Below, one piece after another: positions 9,050 through 54,832 of a stretch of 54,911 bases of DNA. A program made the position numbers and the translations under genes. The notes below the pieces were generated by a model. The model saw only the letters and a list, made by a program, of their open reading frames with translations, was not told the DNA's origin and made no database searches. The stretch spans positions 1 through 54,911 of the forward strand of contig CASEHG010000316.1 in NCBI GenBank assembly GCA_949287565.1, given 5' to 3'. Origin of the DNA: an uncultured Brachyspira sp. (GTDB lineage Bacteria; Spirochaetota; Brachyspiria; Brachyspirales; Brachyspiraceae). Within the stretch, counting starts at the first letter, position 1; the number at the start of each line of letters is the position of its first letter.

Positions 9050-10063
9050 TTAAACTTCTTTATTTTTAATTATTGTAATTTTCTTCTGTTCGTCATTCCA
9101 ATAAACTTCATAACCTAATGCCTCAACCCATCTTACAGGGATTAAAGCTCTTGAAGTTTCAGGGTCAATTTCAGGTGCTTGGTCAAGTACAACGGTCATA
9201 CCATTAACCTTCATTTCTCTGTCGCCTATCCACATTTCTACAACATCTTGGTCTACAGGGTCGTTCTCTAAATCAACGCCCGTATAAGCATCTACTAAAT
9301 AAGAAATCTGGAATATGTCATTTGTTTTTCTATTTAAATAATCATAGGGTATGTAAATATATCCTTTGTTTCCACAATTCTCACCCCAAGAATTTAATAA
9401 ACGAAGGAATCCTTTACATTTTGTACCATCTTCATATTTGTGTTCTAACTCATCATCATACCCTACTGCTACCATAGCGTGTCCACCAATAGATTTACCT
9501 TTTGGCATAGGACAAAATTCATCATTTAATATATCATAAAAATTTTCAAATGCTATGATACCAACAACTACAGGTTTTCCAAGACTTAAAGCATATTTTA
9601 TATCATCAACATTATTACATCTTGCATAGTTTGCTATTTTATAATGTGGAACTTTACTATCATTAGGAAGTTCATGAAACTTAAGACTTCCTACCTCGTA
9701 GTCATAAGGATAATCTATATCTTTTACTGTACCATGATTATATATTGCTTTAAATACACTTAAGATATCACTACCTTCTTGACCTTTAAATGAATCTATT
9801 TTTTTTACTTCTTTAGCTAATGCTATAGGAGACATATTCATTTTATTAGAAGTTTCCATTGTTTCCTGCATACCTTTAAAATATGCACCTGCATAAGAAT
9901 GGCAGAATCCTGTTGAGCCTTGGTCTAAAACCTTATCACAATATTTTTTTAAACTTACTTTTTTAGGTAACTCCCCATGTGCAGTAAATATTTTGCACAC
10001 TTCCCAATCTCTCGGACTTTTAGGAGATTCTTTTAAATCAAAACATCTTTTTATATCGCTCAT
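9050..10063 (-). CDS. Papain-like (C1) cysteine peptidase with stalk domain
   Basis: A 337-aa protein. The papain fold is shown by DQGSTGFCHSYA (oxyanion Gln48, nucleophile Cys54), GGHAMVAVGYDD (His195) and LLNSWGENCGNKGY (Asn224). The last 55 residues resemble the copper amine oxidase N-terminal-like stalk domain of clostridial surface proteins (ALIPVRWVEALGYEVYWND). There is no obvious signal peptide. It is the last gene of the late minus-strand unit, directly after the amidase (gap of four bases). It may therefore serve lysis by cleaving peptide cross-links, or degrade host surface proteins; both are inference. Confidence 0.85.
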   Translation of the reverse strand: MSDIKRCFDLKESPKSPRDWEVCKIFTAHGELPKKVSLKKYCDKVLDQGSTGFCHSYAGAYFKGMQETMETSNKMNMSPIALAKEVKKIDSFKGQEGSDILSVFKAIYNHGTVKDIDYPYDYEVGSLKFHELPNDSKVPHYKIANYARCNNVDDIKYALSLGKPVVVGIIAFENFYDILNDEFCPMPKGKSIGGHAMVAVGYDDELEHKYEDGTKCKGFLRLLNSWGENCGNKGYIYIPYDYLNRKTNDIFQISYLVDAYTGVDLENDPVDQDVVEMWIGDREMKVNGMTVVLDQAPEIDPETSRALIPVRWVEALGYEVYWNDEQKKITIIKNKEV

Positions 10064-17193: not shown

Positions 17194-20100
17194 TTATCTC
17201 CTATATAAGTTCTTAACCATTTGGTTAGGTAAATAATTAATAATTGCCTGTGATAATTCATCTACATTTTGAACATCATGTAATATTATATCTCCGATAC
17301 TAATTGAGGGAGCAGTTGCTTGTGTTGTAGGTGCTTGATATTTTTGTAAAATATCACTAAATGTATCTTGGAAGAAACCGTATGGATTCATTGCGACATC
17401 AATTATTCTTTTTGTTAAATCTGCTGGAACTACTCCTGTTCCTAAACCTAAATAATCTAATCTTCCCTGTGAAGTAGGTCTAATGGTTAATTCAGAGCCC
17501 TCTTCGTCAATCATAGCAAAGCCTTCTGGTGAACTCATAGTACCTTTGGCAAATCTATAAACACCGTCCCAAAGTTCATTATAAGCATCTCTAAGCTCTA
17601 TATATCTTGAACTTGTTGAGCCATATAACTTCGCCATTCTGTCAAGATAGTTTTCTATTTCAAGCTGAGCGGCTAATTGTTCCATTGAAGACATCTCATT
17701 GGGGTCTTCATTAGCATAAGGAGCACCAGCGGGGAAATCAATATTACTTCCACCAGAGCTACCTCCAGAACCTCCGCCGCTACCGCCTTCATCACCGCTA
17801 TCGCCGCCACCGCCAGAATCGCCACCATCGCCACCTGAACTGCCACCGCCAAAATCAGTATTAGAAATGATATCACCTAAGTCATCAACGCTATATGTTA
17901 AATCTTCAATACTTCCAGTGTTATTATATAACTCATCACTATTCCAATATAATTCGTCTGTATTATCGTCAAGACCATCATATACATCATAGTTTGAGTC
18001 TGTGTTATCTTCAAGTATAGAACTATTATTTTCAATACTTGAATTTAATACTTCTGTTCCCCATAAACTGTCATCAATGGAAGTTTTTACATCGTCTATT
18101 TTTTTACTCCATTTACCAGTCTGTGGGTTATATGAAGCACCTTGCGTATTTGGAGCAACTATTTGATAGATACCGTCAGTAGTAATAATTTTATCCCCAA
18201 CTGCCGCTTCTGATGGAGATGAGCCATCTGCGTTAACATACCAAGTTTTTGAACGTGAAGAAGTCGTTCCACTTGCAAACAAGTTCTTTGTCTTTTCTTC
18301 TACTTTGTCCATTTCATCTAAATATGAATCAACAAAGTCATCTAATATATCACTCATTTCTTCGAATGACATATCACCATTAAGAACCATTCTTTGCAGT
18401 TCTTCACTTAATCCATCAACTATGTCAGAAATATCAAGAGACTCTTCCCATTTTTCTTTGAGCGTTTCTAATTCGTCAATTTGTGCGTCAAAGTTCTCTT
18501 CTACAGCTTCTTTTGCTTCTTCTAAGGCTTCAATTTCATCGTTTAATTGTTCTTCTAACTGCCATTTTTCATAATCTCTTTTCGCATCATTATAATCATT
18601 CTGTGCATCTTGTATCGCTGTAGGGTCAGCTTCCCAAACGAAACCTATACCTTCTCTATAAATTTGTATATTTTTTTGTTTTTTAGCTTCGTCAAGGGCA
18701 AGTTGCTTTTCTTCTAAATCAAGGATTTTATCTCTTTTTTTTTCTTCTTCGTCTAAAAGGTCTAATTGTTCCTTAATTCTTTCTATTTTTTCATCATAAT
18801 ATGCAGTTTCTTCGTCTTTCTGCTGTTCTAAAGCGTCAATTTGGTCTTCAATTATCTTTACATTATAGTCTCTTAAAGCTTCGTATTGAGATTGAATATC
18901 ATCTTTAAGTTTTTCTGCCGCATCTATCCAACGCTCTAAATATTCTTCTTCTGTAAGATATCCTTTACGAGCATATTCTTCAATAATGTCAAGCTTTGAT
19001 TTACTTAAATTAATTTGTGTCTGTAAATCAAGTTCACCAATTGCTTCAAGATATTCAGCATATCTATCAAGTTCATCAATACCATTATCAACTATATCAG
19101 TTTGAAGCTGTTTAACTTCACGAGCATACTCTCTATATTTAGACTGTAAGTCCTTAATTAGGTCAGAATCTTCAGAAACACCTGCGGCTCTATATGCATC
19201 AGCCATTTGATGAGTAAATTCCATTTGTTGTCTACGTAATGCTAATATTTCTTCTTCTCTATTACCTTGGTCTTCAAGAATTTCAATTTCAGCGTCAATA
19301 TTAGACATTTCTTCATCATAGATTTCACCTTGTAACTGTCTCATTTCTTCTAAATTTTTTCTATGCTCACTTAAATATTTTTCATTACCAGCATAGTATT
19401 TAGTATCAAGAGCTTTTAATCCATCATAATATTCTCTCCTTGAAATCTTACCCATTGCGTATAAATGTTGGAGTTCTTCTAATTCTGCTTCAAAGGCTTT
19501 AATTATAAGGTCTTCTCCACTATCACTACTACTACCACCACTACCACCAGAAGAAGGAGGGGTATATTGAACGTCTGTATCAAATTTATCATACATTTCA
19601 TCAAGAGCATTTTCAGTCAACATATCAATATAATTTTCACTATAAGTTGTTTTAAGTTTCATTCCATTAACAGTAGTATATTGAACTAATTGACCATTTT
19701 CTAAAAATCCACCATTCGCCATTATAGAATTTAAAACTTTTAAAGAGGCTATTGGTTGACTAATGCTTTTGTTTAATTCTTGTAATGCCTTTATTTTATC
19801 AGATACAGACAAATTAGTTTTATTAAAGTTTATTTGCTCTAAAACTAATAGAGCCATCTGATTAGTGGTTATACCAGCTTGCGTTGCTTCTAAATCAAGA
19901 TTTCCAATAAATGTCATTAATGTTCCATTAGTAATTTGTGTTTGTATTTCTAAAGAAGCTTTTTGTTTTGTAAGTGCTTCCTCAGCGATTACTTCGGCAT
20001 TGGTAATACCCATACCCTCTAGTCTGGTTACAATACTATCCTTATTAGCCTCTGTTAATTCACCCAAAACTACTTTTTCGTTAATATAATCAGTTATTAA

Positions 20101-23100
20101 ATTATTTATTGTATCTTGAAATTTTTCACTGGTTATATTCGCATCAGAAAGAGTATCAATATACTTATCAATACCTTGAACTTCCGCAAAAGATTGTTTA
20201 ATTTTATCTAAAACATCTAAAGAAACATATCCGTTATCTTTAAAATCATCAAAAGCAGACGATATACTTTCTAAAGAAGTCTCAAATGTTCCAAGAGAAC
20301 TTAAAATATTACTATTGTCCGAATTAGTAACATTAATTTTTGTATTAAGTTCATATGTTTCATTTTCTATAGCTTGTTTTAATTTATCAGTAAGGTTATT
20401 AAAATCTTTACCTTTAACTTCTTTGCCTGATAAATAATCTGACCACTCTTGACCATGGTCTTTCATAAAATTGTTAATTTCATCTTCGTCAAATCCAAGC
20501 GATATTAAAAACTCTCTACCTTCGGTAGTTGTTAATAAGTCGTTCATAATATCATTAAGTTCTTTTTGATATTCTTCTGTATTAACATCTATATTTGATA
20601 AATTTAGCAATCTTTGATTATAATAATCTACAGCGTTACTTGCTCGCATCCAAGAGTTAACTGCGTTTTGCATTGATTCAGCTAAATCTTTATCAAATTG
20701 ATTATTTGATTGTGATAATGCTTCTATTGACTGACTGAAACTACTATATAAATTTAATCCTTCGGATTGCAAATCTGCATAATTACCCTGTAGATATATT
20801 AATTGTTCGTTAAGTTTTTGTTCCTTCTCAGATAATTTTTCTAATTGTGATATCTTATCCTCATTTGATAAAGTATCATCCGCTTCTATTTTATTTCTTT
20901 GTGCTATAATTTCGTTAATTTCTTTTTCTTTATTTTCTACAGCAGTTAATGCTTCTTCTTGCAATTCCGCATTTTCTAATAAATAATCTGTCGCACTAAT
21001 ATCTTCTCTTTGTCCAAAAATATCAACTTGTTTTTTACTTATAAATGTAGAATCATAAAATTCACGAGCATCCTGTTGTGCTTGAAGTTGTGCAATTTTA
21101 TTTCTAGTTTCTAATAGTTGAATTTGTCTTTCAAGTTCTTCACTTTGAGCCTTCAAATTTGATAATTCTTGAGCATCAGTAATAGAAAGTTCACCCTTTG
21201 ATTTTATCTCTGCTATTTGATTATTAATATCAGAAAGTTCGTTTTTGGCATTTTCTAAATCGGCAGAACTATCACTAAGCTCATTTATTGACTCTGTTAA
21301 ATCTGACATTGCTCTTTGTCCACTAGTTCTTATGTATTGTTGCACTGCCGCTAAAGCCGCAAATGCTCCAACTAACGCCATGATTCCACCAGTCGAGCCT
21401 ATTAATTTTGATAAAACTTCAACACTACCCTTGTTTTTAAATAACTTCATTAAATCAACAAAGGAATCTTTTAAATATAAAACTTGTAAATATAAAGTTT
21501 CTGCTGAGTCTTTAATTTTTAATAATTGCTGTTGAAGACCAGAACCACCCTTTAATTGACCAGAGGTAATTAAGTTCAATATTGTACTAAGATCTGCTAT
21601 TAAATTACTCGTTCCTTTTAATACTGCTGGTGCACCAAATAATGCAAAACCAGCTATTGCACCACCAACGGCAATTTCAACTAAATGTAACTTATCAACT
21701 AATTCTAAAAGGTGTGTACCTAATTCAACAATTCCTGCAAAAGTATCACTCTGATTTAAATTATTTACAAGCTGTTCCCATGTAGCTATAAATTCGTTTA
21801 TCTTGGCATCTATACTTTCAAGATATATTGAATACTTTTGTTCAGCAGTACCAGCTGCATTTGTAGCTTTATTTGTAGCTTCTGTAACTTTTTCCCAATT
21901 ATTAAATAATACAATTAAGTTTTCTCTTTGTCTCGTACCACCAAGAGCAGTTGTAATTTGTGACCTTTGAGTATCTGTAAATTCACTCCATCTATTACCT
22001 ACTTCTTCGAAAATTTCAGAAGCATCTCGCCATTCATTTAAGCTATTCCTTGTAGCAATACCAACTCTATTTAAAGATTTCTCAACATCATTTAATTTTT
22101 CTCCTTCTTCATCAAGTTCTTTACCTGCCGCAACATTCTGTAATCTTGAGAAAATTGTTTTAAATGATTGTCCAATAGATTCGGCAGAACGTCTTGTTGT
22201 CGAAGAAACAATAGTAATCATACCAATCATTTCATCAAGTGAAACTCCAGCCATACCCGCAGAAGCCGCTGTATATCTTAAAGCTGTAGCGATTTCTCCA
22301 GCACTGGTAGCATAATCCAACTTTTATGTTATAATTCAAATGGCAAATTTGAATTTATGTTATTTGTATATTTTTATCTAAATCGTAACGAAATATAAAA
22401 TTATCTTTTAATATTATATCCTGTAATTTTTATATCAATAAATTTTGAAATTAAACTCATTCTGTCACCATTAATTATATACAAATAACAATTTCTTATA
22501 CTTTCCTATAAGAACAGACTACATCTTCATATTATTACTACATGAATAATAATATACCCTCCATTTCGATACATCATAAGCCATTTATGTATCTACTCTA
22601 CTAACTATTATGTAACGTCTTTCTCGTTATCAATAGATTTCGATAGTCGTTGAGCCTTTGTCTAATAAATAGACACTTGGTTGCTGATTGTCCAATCTTA
22701 ATTCTTTTTACTATCTCAAACACATTACTGTTTGCCCTTATATATGTCACCATTATAAGTTAGTAAACTAAGCTCTAAGGAGTTTCCAGCAATTAAAAGG
22801 GTTTATAGTGAACTAAAATTAATCCACTTTAACAAGCTTATCTACTACGCTCTCAGACTCTTTAGCTGTTAAATTGAAACCGTTTAAACTTGATGTCATT
22901 AATTCTGTTGCTTCTGCCGAATCAAGCATGCCTAATGTTGACAACTTTGTTGAAGATTCAAGCATCTCTGCTGATTCTTCGATAGAATATCCCTGTCTTC
23001 TGTTATATTACTTTTGAAAACAATTACCTTTCAAAAGATTCTATTAAAAATAGAATTTTCTTACAGTTTCCTATAAGCATAGACTATATCTTTATATTAT

Positions 23101-25562
23101 TACCCTATAAGGATAATAATATACCCTCCGTTTCAATACATTGTTAATTCTGTATTTACTCTACTACCTACTATGTAACGTCTTTCTCGTTATCAGCAGG
23201 ATTTGATAGTCGTTGAACCTTTCTCTATTCGAGACTTGGCTGCTGATTACCCAATATTTATAATTTTTAACCGTCACACCTAATCCTATTTCATATTTAT
23301 GTTGTGGTTTATAAATCTCTAAGGGATTTCCAGCAATTAAAAGGGTTTATAGTGACCTATTTTTTATTTAAGCCACTCTATACTACCTTCAGCAACGCTT
23401 CGAGTAGTAACACCTAACTGTCTTGCCAAATCGGCATAAGTATTAATAGCTTCGTGAGCTTCTTCTGCCGTTTGTCCTGTTACCATTCTCATATTAGTCA
23501 TTGCGGTGTCAAGTTCATGAACTAAAGAAATTGATTCACTTATACCACGACCAACTAAGTTTAAGGCTTCCCAAGCTAATTGATATTGTACTACATTTTT
23601 TGCAACTTCTGTTATTTTACTACCTAAAGAACCAAATAAAGATTGACTTTCTTTAGTTTTAGAGTTTACTTTAGCCATCGAATCTTCTAACTTATTATTC
23701 GAATCTGTTATTGCATCAGTATATTTTTTTCTTTTAAGCAATTCAGGGTTAGTCTGTTTCAACTCATTATTATAAGCCTCTTCTGCCTTTCTAACTTTCT
23801 CTGTAGCGTAAGCTTTTTCTTCTGTTGTTGATTTTACATTTTTGTCAACCGCATAAGCATTTAATTTTGCCTGATTTAATTCTTGGTATAATTGTATTAA
23901 TTTATTAATTTGAGCTGTATCAGCCTTATTTTGCTGTGTTAGATTAAATTCTAATTCTTGTTGTGCAAAATCATTATCAATTTCATTTAAACGAGTATTA
24001 ATTCTATTTCTAAATTGTTCGAGGTCTGCTTCGGCTTCAGTTAATTGTTTAGTAGCATTAATTTCCTCTTTAATATCATTAATTCTCTGATTATTAGCAT
24101 CTATTTTATTTTGATAAAATCTCTGTAATGCAGTATCTTCATCTTGTTCAGCTTTTTGAATTTCTTTTGTTAATTGAAGATTGTCCTTTTTTAAACTAAT
24201 ATATTCACGATAGATTTGTTCATCTTTTGCAACAGTAGTGCTACTTGCTACTGTAATTCCTTTAATTCCAGTAGCCTCATCTGTATATGATTTTAAAGAG
24301 CCTAATGCCTTAATGTCACCCATCATTAATTCAAAGGCTTGGTGAAATTCTCCTGCTTCGTCAGTCATAACATCTCCAAGATTTAATTTCATTCCTAAGC
24401 CTTTTGCGATATCTTGTGCTTCATCTAAAGTAACTGATTTAAAATCTTTTAATCTATCTTCAAATATCTTTAATATATTATTACCTTCATCAATCTGTTC
24501 TCTAACACCATCAAAAAGATTTAATTTTAAAGTTTCTCTGCCTAAATCATCATCATAAGCAGTAATTCTGGCCGAAGCTACCATGTCTGAAAATCCTTTT
24601 AAGACACCAGCTTCATCAGAAATATCCAATCCTTTAAAATATTGTGCGAACCAAGATTCAGGATTAGTCTTACTTAAATTAATATATGTTTGAGCGAGTT
24701 CCCTTCCAGCCGCAGATAATTTTTGTACCTTGGATACTCCACCCTCAATACTATTATTAAAAGTGCTTATTTCTTGACCTAATCCTGTTAAAGCTCTAGT
24801 AACTTCAACCTCATAGACTTTCCATCCATCTGACTTTATATTAACATTAGATAAATCTGAGATTTCAGATTTCCACTGAGCTATTTGCTGAGTAATTTTA
24901 TCAAAACTTGCGTCAGGCATAGAAATTTGTACACTATCACCTATTGCTCTTTGTAATAATTCATAACTTTCACGAAACCTTTGCAGTTTTCTTAAATTAC
25001 TTTCCCATTGTTGCTCATTTTGTTTTAGTGTTTTAGATTGGTCGTAATTAGGCATTACAGCATTATACTCTTTAAATCTTTCAGTATAATCCATAATACT
25101 AGAGTTAATTTTTTCTTGCAACTGAACGCTTTGTTGTAAATTTTTAATCTGTTTATTTAAGCTTTCATCGTCATTAAATGAAGGTGTTACCATATCTAAT
25201 TCTTTCGACTTTTGAACAAGTTCTTCTATTGTAGATATAGCTTTTTCAGAATTTGATATAAATTTTTCAAATCCCATATTTTTAGAAAAATTTGGCATTG
25301 AAGCTCCAACTGCATCAAATCTTTTTTTTAATTCATTTAATCTATTTGAAGAGTCACCAATAACAGACATTAAGGTATTCCATTGATTTGTATATTTTCT
25401 TAAATCACTTAATGCATCTTCATCTGTGACATTAATCTTTAATTTTTTTTGTGCTTTTTCGATTTTCTTTGCGATATTTGTAATTTGATTTGTCAAATTT
25501 TCATCCTGCATATTTGCCGCAAAGTTTATAGCTATATCAAATTGTTTCTTATTATAGGCCAA
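17194..25562 (-). CDS. Tape measure protein, three exons with two group I introns
   Basis: The phage tape measure (tail length) protein. Exon 1 is 25562-23371, exon 2 is 22999-22822, exon 3 is 22320-17194, giving about 2,498 aa. The splice junctions restore the family motif: exon 1 ends EGSIEWL, exon 2 reads RQGYSIEESAEMLESSTKLS to DKLVKVD, exon 3 begins LDYATSAGEIATALR. Start TTG 25562 lies eight bases after AAAGGAGG. Most of the chain is coiled coil, with a hydrophobic pair near residues 990-1120 and Gly/Ser-rich spacers. It would wind inside the tail tube and be ejected first. At the usual 0.15 nm per residue the tail would be roughly 375 nm long (inference). Exon 2 ends with an IGS-compatible AGTGGAT. 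Confidence 0.9.
22321..22821 (-). ncRNA. Group I intron B in the tape measure gene
   Basis: A 501-nt self-splicing-type intron. On the minus strand, conserved core elements appear in order: P-element AATTGCTGGAAACTCC, Q-element AATCAGCAACC, R-element GCTCAACGACTATCG (22642-22656) and S-element AAGATGTAGTCT (22516-22527). R and S contain the complementary P7 strands GACTA/TAGTC. The 5' site follows exon AGTGGAT, which pairs with intron AGTTCACT, ending in the required U.G pair. The last intron base is G (22321) if exon 3 starts at TTG; ending one codon later is also possible. No homing endonuclease frame lies inside. A subgroup IA type is suggested by the short P7.1/P3 layout, but the fold was not computed. 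Confidence 0.9.
23000..23370 (-). ncRNA. Group I intron A in the tape measure gene
   Basis: A 371-nt intron with the same core as intron B: P-element AATTGCTGGAAATCCC, Q-element AATCAGCAGCCAAG, R-element GTTCAACGACTATC (23205-23218), S-element AAGATATAGTCT (23082-23093), with complementary GACTA/TAGTC. The 5' site follows exon AGTGGCT, which pairs with intron AGGTCACT and ends in U.G. The final base is G (23000), and exon 2 starts AAGACAGGG. It is clearly paralogous to intron B, much of the core being identical, and it likewise lacks an endonuclease gene. Confidence 0.9.
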
Positions 25563-25580
25563 TAATAACACCTCCTTTAA

Positions 25581-26683: not shown

Positions 26684-27736
26684 TTATTTCATTTTATCCA
26701 AAGACTTTTTGAGCACATCTAAATTTTTCCACTCTTTATCTTTAGCAGTAAGGTCATTATAAATAGTGTACATTTCTCTAGACTTCCATCCCATAATTGA
26801 AATAATAAAATCAGCTTCAAGACCTAATTTACTTAAATGAGTAACAATTCTATGTCTTAAACAGTGAGGATAAAAATAAACTTCATGACCATCAGGGTTA
26901 GAATCTTTATCTTCAGTTAAAAATTTTTCCCACTTTCTAATCCAACTTCTTGCTGTAGTTGGAGTCGCTGGTGAACCATCTTTTTTTATAAAAATATAAT
27001 TATGCTCTTGATTATTTTCTTTCATAATTTTTTCTCTTATTGGCAACCATTTTTTATATTTAGGCATAAAAACATCTTTAATAATATATTTATATTTAGC
27101 TTCGCCCTGTTTACCAAAGCCTTTTGTTTTAATCATATCTGTTGTCTCTAAGAATAGTCCATCAAACGCAGTATTATCTTCGTCAATTAAATCAGTTGTA
27201 AACCTAAATAATTCACTAATTCTTGCACCTGAAGATATGGCTAAAGCCAATAACAAAGCTTCCTGTGGCTTCTCGATTTCATCAGACAACCAGTGCATTA
27301 AATTATCAACTTGTTTATCAGTTAATATCGTTTTCTTTCTAACTACATTCTTAGGTAATTTTTCAATCTTTTTAACTTGATTTCTAAAATCAGGATAATC
27401 ATCATCGAGAATATTTTCTATAAAATTACTTAAAGAATTTAAAGAACTCCACATATTAGCGTATCTATTTGGACTCCATTTTAATTCCAATACTGCATAA
27501 TCAAAGAAATCTGCAAATTCTGACTTTCGAATATCTATAAAAAATTTATTATCATTATTTTCTACATTCCAACAAAAGAATATATTAAAATTAGAACGAT
27601 AAACATTTACTGAATTATCTGACCTTTTTGTATCAAAGTTTTTTAAAAATCTATTAACTAATTTAACATTTTTGGGATTAATTTGACTAATTAATTCATC
27701 TGTCGTTATCTTTTTTCTATATGTAACTCTCCCCAC
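26684..27736 (-). CDS. Tyrosine site-specific recombinase
   Basis: A 350-aa integrase-fold protein. The core-binding domain occupies about residues 20-125. The catalytic domain has Arg172 (SSGARISELF), His291-x-x-Arg294 (PHCLRHRIVTHL), Trp317 in the second His position (MGWKS), and Tyr326 (MYTIYNDL). It starts at GTG with AGGTGATG upstream. It would cut and rejoin DNA at a specific site. Its location inside the tail gene cluster, next to a RecU-like resolvase, and away from any repressor or visible attachment site, is unusual for a lysogeny integrase. It could resolve genome multimers or invert a segment. Confidence 0.85.
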   Translation of the reverse strand: MGRVTYRKKITTDELISQINPKNVKLVNRFLKNFDTKRSDNSVNVYRSNFNIFFCWNVENNDNKFFIDIRKSEFADFFDYAVLELKWSPNRYANMWSSLNSLSNFIENILDDDYPDFRNQVKKIEKLPKNVVRKKTILTDKQVDNLMHWLSDEIEKPQEALLLALAISSGARISELFRFTTDLIDEDNTAFDGLFLETTDMIKTKGFGKQGEAKYKYIIKDVFMPKYKKWLPIREKIMKENNQEHNYIFIKKDGSPATPTTARSWIRKWEKFLTEDKDSNPDGHEVYFYPHCLRHRIVTHLSKLGLEADFIISIMGWKSREMYTIYNDLTAKDKEWKNLDVLKKSLDKMK

Positions 27737-30681: not shown

Positions 30682-31500
30682 TTATTCTCCTTCTTCTTCT
30701 GTAAATACAGTGAAGTTATATAATTTGCTTTCAAGACAGCCCTTAACGAATTCCATATTAAGGTTCTGTACAGCAGGGTCGCCATCAGCGGAAAGGTCGA
30801 ATGACCAGTTACCATCAATCTGAGCCTGACCTTCTACTTGTGCAGGATATAATTCACCGTTACAAATATCTCTGGCGATACCGAAAGCTGTAACTAAAGC
30901 AACTGAAGGGATTGCGTTAGCTTCTATTGTAATTCTTTCACTACCAGAAGGTTTATATGTGTAAGCACATTCATAATAATCACCAGCAATAGGAGTTTCT
31001 GATGTATCAAATGTAAATGTCTTTGTTGCTGTTGCATATGTGAATTTTCCAGAAGCTGCTGTTTCTGCATCTTGCATAAATTCTTTTTCATGAGTTCCGT
31101 CATCATTTAACTTATATACGAAGCCAATTTCTGTACCAGTAGCTCCAAGGGCTGTAAAAGTTGTCTTTAATGTTCCGGTAGCATCAGCCTGTATTAAATC
31201 GTAATATGTTACTTCTGATGTGTCTCTCTGAACTTCTGTACCATTCTGTAAGGCCATAACATCTATATTCCAAGTAGCTGTTGAAACATTAAATGTAGCT
31301 CTTCTTGAGTGTGCGAAACCACCACCGATGTATACGTTACCCTGACCACCGACAGGATATACCATTTCAACTGTGTTGTCAAGTCCAGAAGTCTTAACGT
31401 CTGTTAAATAAGCTATAATACTTTTATCGCTCGGTCTTCTTAATAAAAGCTCGAAAACCTGTTGCATAGCAAACTTTTTAGGTGTTGCTTTATTAGCCAT
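30682..31500 (-). CDS. Major tail protein
   Basis: A 272-aa protein with typical tail-tube features: moderate length, beta-rich, GC slightly higher than its neighbours, and a codon pattern of highly expressed genes. It begins MANKATPKKFAMQQVFELLL and includes VYPVGGQGNVYIGGGFAHSR, GTEIGFVYKLNDDGTHEKEF and a C-terminal LSADGDPAVQNLNMEFVKG. It is followed by a strong terminator, as major structural genes often are. It forms the tail tube. Confidence 0.82.
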   Translation of the reverse strand: MANKATPKKFAMQQVFELLLRRPSDKSIIAYLTDVKTSGLDNTVEMVYPVGGQGNVYIGGGFAHSRRATFNVSTATWNIDVMALQNGTEVQRDTSEVTYYDLIQADATGTLKTTFTALGATGTEIGFVYKLNDDGTHEKEFMQDAETAASGKFTYATATKTFTFDTSETPIAGDYYECAYTYKPSGSERITIEANAIPSVALVTAFGIARDICNGELYPAQVEGQAQIDGNWSFDLSADGDPAVQNLNMEFVKGCLESKLYNFTVFTEEEGE

Positions 31501-49982: not shown

Positions 49983-50594
49983 CTAATTATTTTTATGTAT
50001 AATATCCCAAATATTTTTTAATATATATTCTCCGATATCACTAATCATAAAAACAGAAATAATAATACCACTACTTATCGCAGTAGAAAATAAAAAATGT
50101 TTATAATAAATAAATATTAAATTAAAACACATTAATAACACAAAATATCTTATATATTTATATCTGAATTTTTTATCTTCCTTATAACCCCTACTTGGAC
50201 TATTAATGCTTGGCTTAGGACATTGTGGAATAATATATATACCTAATAATAAAGATATAATAAACATAGATATTACATAGTCTTGTGTTAGATAAGCTAT
50301 AAAAGTACCACAAAAAAATACTGTTAAAGAAGTTATAAAACAGTCTCTAAAACAACTGCAATGGTAGCCGCCCCCACCAATTCTTAACAATACAAAGCTT
50401 GATACAACTATAAAAAAAGGTATAAACATATTTAATAACCAAGCTATTAAAAATGCTATACCAAATGTAAAAAATTGCGAAAATATACCAAAGATTGCAT
50501 ATCTATATACTTCTCTGTCGTCTTCGGTTTCATTTTCACCAATTTTATTACCTATTTCATTAGACTTTTGTTCTATGTAATCGAATATATTCAT
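49983..50594 (-). CDS. agrB: AgrB-like peptide-processing membrane endopeptidase
   Basis: A 203-aa polytopic membrane protein. The catalytic pair is visible: GGGGYHCSCFRDC, with His78 and Cys85 spaced seven apart, as His77 and Cys84 of S. aureus AgrB. Several hydrophobic helices follow (about residues 95-115, 145-165, 170-190). AgrB cleaves AgrD, forms the thiolactone/lactone ring and helps export. Start ATG 50594 after AAGGTG was preferred over an earlier GTG. The gene lies 82 bases downstream of the AgrD-like gene, with a terminator between, and ends in TAG. Confidence 0.88.
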   Translation of the reverse strand: MNIFDYIEQKSNEIGNKIGENETEDDREVYRYAIFGIFSQFFTFGIAFLIAWLLNMFIPFFIVVSSFVLLRIGGGGYHCSCFRDCFITSLTVFFCGTFIAYLTQDYVISMFIISLLLGIYIIPQCPKPSINSPSRGYKEDKKFRYKYIRYFVLLMCFNLIFIYYKHFLFSTAISSGIIISVFMISDIGEYILKNIWDIIHKNN

Positions 50595-50610
50595 TAATTT
50601 CACCTTAATA

Positions 50611-54211: not shown

Positions 54212-54778
54212 TTAATACATGCAATTACAGCCACAACCAGTATTGTAATATCCGTTGTATCCACAATCATAGTTCGCATAAGCATATGCAGGATACATAT
54301 GTTTTGTAGATATTACATTAATACCTCCAGAATAAGGGTCTGCAAGCTGTGAAGGACTAGCGTATACATCACCTTTAATACATCTGCAAGTTGCATCGCT
54401 AATTCTGCACTGTTCAAGCAAGTCAGCATATTTAAACTGAGCTTCAAAGAACTTATTCTGCCAATCATTCTGAGCTGACATAAATTCAAAGTTTTTAGCA
54501 ATAGAAGTTTCATCAACAGCAACTCTTTGCTCTAAAGCACAAATTCTATCTGAAATACCCATTGTTGTGTTGAAACCTTCTTTGAGATTTTGGATTTCAG
54601 TCTCATAGAATTGTCTTTCTGATACTGCTGGCGATTCACATTTATTACCTAATAAACCACCTATGCCATTTTCGCCAGCTAAAGCTAATCCACCTAAAGC
54701 TGTGCCGATTACACCAAGAGCTGTTGTTCCTCTTCCAGCGGCATTAAAATCTGAACCACTTGTTGTTTTTACCATCAT
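54212..54778 (-). CDS. Hypothetical protein with Gly-rich start and Cys-rich end
   Basis: A 188-aa protein (start ATG 54778 behind AGGTG). N terminus is Gly/Ala-rich (TTALGVIGTALGGLALAGEN), the middle is a helix with ICALEQRVAVDETSIAKNFE, and the C terminus is a Tyr/Gly/Cys repeat (DCGYNGYYNTGCGCNCMY). Similar proteins are seen in gut Firmicutes phages near the virion genes. No function is recognised. Confidence 0.65.
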   Translation of the reverse strand: MMVKTTSGSDFNAAGRGTTALGVIGTALGGLALAGENGIGGLLGNKCESPAVSERQFYETEIQNLKEGFNTTMGISDRICALEQRVAVDETSIAKNFEFMSAQNDWQNKFFEAQFKYADLLEQCRISDATCRCIKGDVYASPSQLADPYSGGINVISTKHMYPAYAYANYDCGYNGYYNTGCGCNCMY

Positions 54779-54832
54779 AATAATCACCTATTTATATAAA
54801 TTTGGTGACAATGTGATAATGTGTATTAAAAA

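Follow-up and report, generated by a model that had tools for sequence, protein, structure and literature searches.

Two related group I introns predicted within the tape measure gene of a large phage contig

The transcript of the tape measure gene (TMP) in the DNA stretch analysed here (54,911 nt in full, hereafter the window) most probably carries two self-splicing group I introns of one spreading family, a prediction to which we give a probability of about 0.93. The window lies within a large phage contig that was binned with a 2.93-Mb bacterial assembly. TMP lies on its minus strand, and the frame is interrupted twice, by introns termed I1 and I2, whose insertion points are referred to as site 1 and site 2. 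An intron pair in TMP had been claimed in a first-pass annotation, and its coordinates proved exact, including the 178 nt of exon 2 between I1 and I2.

23371..25571, minus strand: TMP exon 1, from the GTG at 25571, with the 3' end GAG TGG CT (open frame and spliced frame)
23000..23370, minus strand: I1, putative group I intron (IA-like), 371 nt, no ORF (RF00028, held-out profile, fold)
22822..22999, minus strand: TMP exon 2, 178 nt, phase 2 to phase 0, gap-free against the intronless TMP of contig G067
22321..22821, minus strand: I2, putative group I intron (IA-like), 501 nt (RF00028, held-out profile, fold)
17194..22320, minus strand: TMP exon 3, beginning TTG GAT TAT (open frame and spliced frame)

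Removal of both introns in silico results in a single 2501-aa TMP frame, in which the exon joins proposed in the first-pass annotation, EGSIEWL-RQGYSIEES and DKLVKVD-LDYATSAGE, are both found. Translation is predicted to end after 735 codons if both introns are kept and after 793 codons if I1 alone is removed; the first in-frame UAA is at most seven bases into I1, and in I2 it is the first codon. The joined exons contain a complete PhageMin_Tail domain (PF10145, 120.7 bits against a gathering score of 33.2, E 9.9e-35, profile positions 2-201 of 201). The intronless TMPs of known cultured phages align as one piece across both junctions, and that of the related contig G067 is 47% identical to the joined TMP, without a gap at either junction. 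Automatic annotation fragments such structural genes, and here TMP comes out as two separate large ORFs. A tyrosine recombinase (26684-27736) is encoded close to TMP, within the late operon, and in FADO, 2S-4, WRP3, phiL47 and PJN02 annotated integrases are found immediately upstream of TMP. Elsewhere in the window, 49983-50603 encodes an AgrB homologue (PF04647, 1e-29), a possible case of phage-borne peptide signalling, with another in the phage contig MT835481; and 9050-10063 encodes a papain-family cysteine protease with a copper amine oxidase N-terminal-like domain, adjoining an amidase-like ORF.

The anatomy and pairings of both introns, like the frame around them, can be read from the sequence itself. 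Against the Rfam model RF00028, which represents group I introns in general and does not discriminate subgroups, I1 scored 74.1 bits, above the 50-bit gathering score, and I2 scored 44.3 bits over the full model length (E 2e-9), below it; the covariance-model search suggested in the first-pass annotation thus bore out I1 and left I2 under the cut-off. A nucleotide profile of 22 relatives, with I1 and I2 held out, recovered both (E 1.5e-45 and 2.4e-41, respectively) and detected no third intron in the window. The folding z-scores were -4.44 for I1 and -4.36 for I2, with no shuffled sequence equally stable. The unguided minimum-energy fold of I1 contains P1, P3, P4, P5, P6, P8 and P9, with P8 as a long hairpin, and has hairpins at the place of P7.1/P7.2, between the P7 5' strand and the P3 3' strand, a possible IA-like feature.

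Both introns possess the P, Q, R and S elements claimed earlier, the U.G splice sites (each 5' exon ends in a U that faces a guide G) and the terminal G, which is the last base of each. The helices P3-P8 and P7, on which the earlier folding prediction hinged, can form: P3 pairs 7/7, and does so in 6 of 7 related introns with several pairs exchanged; P8 is a hairpin in I1; and P7, a pseudoknot confirmed by a scripted check, is GACUA/UAGUC. P1 pairs 7/7 in I1 and in I2 despite differing exon and guide sequences. Among five introns, both sides of P1 have changed at three pairs, and at the I1 site of MT835481 the exon is CUUGGCU and the guide GGUCAAG. Related introns also show covariation in P4 (U-A to G-C) and in P7 (U-A to C-G, varying in one relative only). 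P10 was not evident in I1 or I2.

23351..23357, minus strand: I1 guide GGUCACU, P1 7/7 with exon AGUGGCU (23371-23377)
22807..22813, minus strand: I2 guide GUUCACU, P1 7/7 with exon AGUGGAU (22822-22828), a C-G to A-U exchange relative to I1
23207..23219, minus strand: I1 R element GGUUCAACGACUA, P7 5' strand
23082..23092, minus strand: I1 S element AAGAUAUAGUC, P7 3' strand
22644..22656, minus strand: I2 R element GGCUCAACGACUA
22517..22527, minus strand: I2 S element AAGAUGUAGUC
23172..23194, minus strand: 23-nt block in the P7.1/P7.2 region of I1, with an identical block in I2
22609..22631, minus strand: 23-nt block of I2, identical to that of I1

The exact 23-nt block shared by I1 and I2 had no match in viral_contigs.

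We infer that splicing would proceed as follows. Each intron would fold as a group I core, and the guide at its 5' end would pair with the last seven exon bases to form P1; a guanosine would attack after the final exon U, and the freed exon would then attack past the terminal G of the intron. Two such reactions would join the three exons into the message for the 2501-aa tape measure protein, and the early in-frame UAA codons in I1 and I2 would halt ribosomes on unspliced RNA. The family may have spread within and between genes of the lineage by endonuclease-driven homing, guide-directed reverse splicing or both, with endonucleases lost after the spread. The site-1 intron is common to related phages, and the site-2 intron is known from the window phage only.

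MT835481, from human faeces, is syntenic with the window. Its TMP is broken at the same residue as by I1, with an intron of 75.1 bits in that place; site 2 is empty, and a second TMP intron, with an endonuclease gene, lies near residue 916. Viral contigs scanned with TMP or TerL as a single protein gave no matches, and the sequences of a seven-member TMP alignment were too divergent for it to serve as a query; a search with a two-sequence TerL alignment retrieved 14 close virus contigs, 4 of which include the relevant part of TMP. The TMP of G067 has no intron, that of G066 has one (near residue 187), that of G068 at least three and that of G073 at least four, which are related to one another and lie in this same TMP domain. 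Site 1 is occupied in G068 and G073, and so in 4 of 6 phages with MT835481 and the window phage included, which means that I1 is not new. Site 2 is occupied in the window only, being empty in 5/5 related phages examined. RF00028 matches were found in 11 of the 14 close contigs (at most eight in one contig), and TerL and several structural genes of the lineage are also split. A site-1 intron was considered in FADO-like phages, whose match starts from residue 53, and was rejected, their TMP being one open frame.

Outside the lineage, in Clostridioides phage ES-S-0107-01, an intron is evident in TMP within about 10 codons of site 2, for which Rfam gave no match at E<0.1. In Geobacillus virus E3 (L056 2726-3036), TMP is annotated as two genes separated by a 310-nt gap with group I-like motifs; the gap resembles an overlooked group I intron, lying about three codons from site 2. 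Given these introns near site 2 and the repeated TMP introns within the lineage, this TMP domain is a favoured target. Other split genes were seen in the same material. TerL is split at residues ~161 and 412-414 in MT835481 (L043 21527-21785 and 22548-23680), L066, L068, L069, L073 and L074 by a conserved element of ~250 nt that RF00028 misses at E<0.5. The element appears to represent a second group I family; its P7 is GCAUA/UAUGC, and one copy has an HNH ORF. Tandem group I introns, seemingly separated by a micro-exon of a few codons, lie in a virion gene homologous to 30682-31500 of the window (L187 1801-2558, L189 4384-5324), and a second phage-like contig of the same assembly (G000:C217 41063-41344, L001) has a group I intron of 97.2 bits in what is, by eye, an apparent homologue of the window gene at 54212-54787.

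I1 and I2 are mutual best matches, with 75% identity over 339 nt and 76% over 246 columns, in agreement with the paralogy asserted in the first-pass annotation. In a tree they are nearest by path, with the branching order left open, and topology tests (p-AU) gave 0.58 for I1 with I2, 0.10 for I1 with the site-1 intron of G073, and 0.0585 for all site-1 introns together; a clade of I1 and I2 is allowed by these values, not required. The similarity is not uniform along I1. In a comparison of I2 with the G073 site-1 intron, I1 agrees with I2 at 66 of 88 informative sites as far as position 312, and with the G073 intron at 13 of 14 beyond it (p<=0.0005 for the switch). In its final 100 nt, I1 matches the site-1 introns of other phages with z of 13.5, 5.1 and 4.5, against 1.0 for I2; site-1 introns are alike across phages in this part (z 4.5 to 15.9), and other pairs of tails stay below 3.4. 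By these comparisons I1 is a mosaic, with an I2-like core and a site-1-like 3' tail, which requires either conversion between introns or tail loss after copying. The ends are thus bound to the site, and the cores are shared within the gene.

The same pattern is seen in G073, where the site-1 core is 83% like the phage's own site-b intron and the tail is like site 1. In TerL of MT835481, introns A and B are 90% identical to each other, A being only 77% identical to its positional counterpart, with exons at 82-89%. The pattern is not universal, being absent from TerL of L069 and from the tandem introns of the 30682-31500 gene. The TMP introns b and c of G073 (L184 1407-3619) share 94% identity over 275 nt, the ACAGCT target and the guide, with an endonuclease gene in one and none in the other; intragenic spread to a matching target therefore happens in this lineage. 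We propose that the cores of I1 and I2 had a recent shared source, through copying or mutual conversion. More tentatively, the introns of one gene may evolve in concert, with cores repeatedly copied or converted and guide and 3' tail fixed to the site, although we consider this rather less than an even chance. If true, each such gene would generate an intron family of its own, directed anew at fortuitous matches within the gene.

No endonuclease ORF was found in I1 or I2, nor any endonuclease among the window proteins scanned (small ORFs in part). One short frame in I2 resembles the start of endonucleases in the introns of relatives (G073: MIISKFVNIRMVSQNIKYYRDLGY):

22401..22460, minus strand: MSLISKFIDIKITGYNIKR*, ORF of 19 codons in the I2 3' tail, matching a homing endonuclease gene (HEG) N-terminal profile

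The peptide, which is short and was picked out after inspection, scored 14.9 bits against a four-sequence HEG N-terminal profile, a value reached by 0 of 3000 shuffled tails (best 13.4). Searches with it in PHROGs and by tblastn returned nothing, and the support for a relic therefore lies in the profile-versus-shuffle test. In G068, one intron has an endonuclease gene at a similar position of its 3' tail. The 19-codon frame is likely the start of a decayed homing endonuclease gene, and suggests past endonuclease-driven mobility; it is also compatible with reverse splicing.

Loss of splicing, with TMP dead or made in pieces, would fit the sub-threshold Rfam score of I2, but each of the three exons is open and conserved, the guides co-vary with the exons, and the core pairs are intact in I1 and I2; we regard such a broken gene as very improbable. 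Purposeful skipping of exon 2 to give a shorter protein, as in Twort orf142 and SIOphi, is brought to mind by the related introns flanking a short exon, and skipping has been published for such genes (PMC11878797). However, since exon 2 is 178 nt long, skipping it shifts the frame and ends the protein at 747 aa, which makes this very unlikely.

Within the reading of two self-splicing introns, the mosaic pattern is shown by the sequence, and we infer the mobility route and the direction of exchange. Reverse splicing or ectopic repair may have placed a copy of I1 at site 2, with I2 then gaining an endonuclease gene and losing its original tail; we place this slightly below even odds. The duplication and transposition to a similar AGTGG-U target suggested in the first-pass annotation is partly supported. 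Both are favoured by the targets AGTGGCT and AGTGGAT with their matching guides and by the G073 pair at one target; the suggestion also gains from I1 and I2 being mutual nearest relatives, and the copy from the vacant site 2 of the related phages. Against a simple copy stand the occupation of site 1 in 3 of 5 other related phages, the site-1-like tail of I1 and the tail of I2, in which nothing of the I1 tail is seen (z 1.0); the tree does not require the clade. Equally probable, in our judgement, is that I2 arrived at site 2 from another locus, bringing an endonuclease gene, and that its core later overwrote the resident site-1 core, the guide and 3' tail of I1 being left in place. The division of informative sites between core (66/88 toward I2) and tail (13/14 toward G073 site 1) supports such conversion, as does the like pattern in G073 and in the TerL introns A and B of MT835481. 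However, the same pattern would arise if I1 had been copied and the tail of I2 then replaced; moreover, the TerL introns A and B of L069 are not homogenised (73% identity), and the tandem introns of the 30682-31500 gene are not mutual closest relatives.

Several TMP introns are also known in Vibrio phage ICP1, which belongs to another phage lineage: three introns and four exons, spliced in infected cells, with variable endonuclease content, according to an excerpt of the report (PMC10448857), which does not describe them as paralogous; splicing has been shown in ICP1, whereas the window is known from sequence. Bastillevirinae such as SIOphi resemble the window in having IA-like group I introns, up to three in a gene, but these lie in DNA metabolism and terminase genes instead of TMP, and exon skipping has been observed in SIOphi (PMC11878797); the SIOphi intron is ~71% identical to I1/I2 over 28% of the query. 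Twort orf142, as cited in PMC11878797, is likewise a tail gene with several introns and exon skipping, although a different gene from TMP. Jug phages (PMC12363816) and zeta crAss-like phages (PMC7886860) of the human gut are intron-dense (18.5 introns per genome; up to 14), but are larger and different, with terL, nrdD, polymerase and MCP genes as the named targets. The site-1 TMP intron of MT835481 shares the insertion site and family of I1 but has a short P7.1 and no P7.2 block. Intron-rich phages and a three-intron TMP are already published, and the remaining special interest is the exchange of cores within a gene; related introns occur here as natural pairs, at sites of one gene that are shared or lineage-specific, and with empty-site relatives available they make the route by which group I introns change site (endonuclease, reverse splicing or conversion) directly testable.
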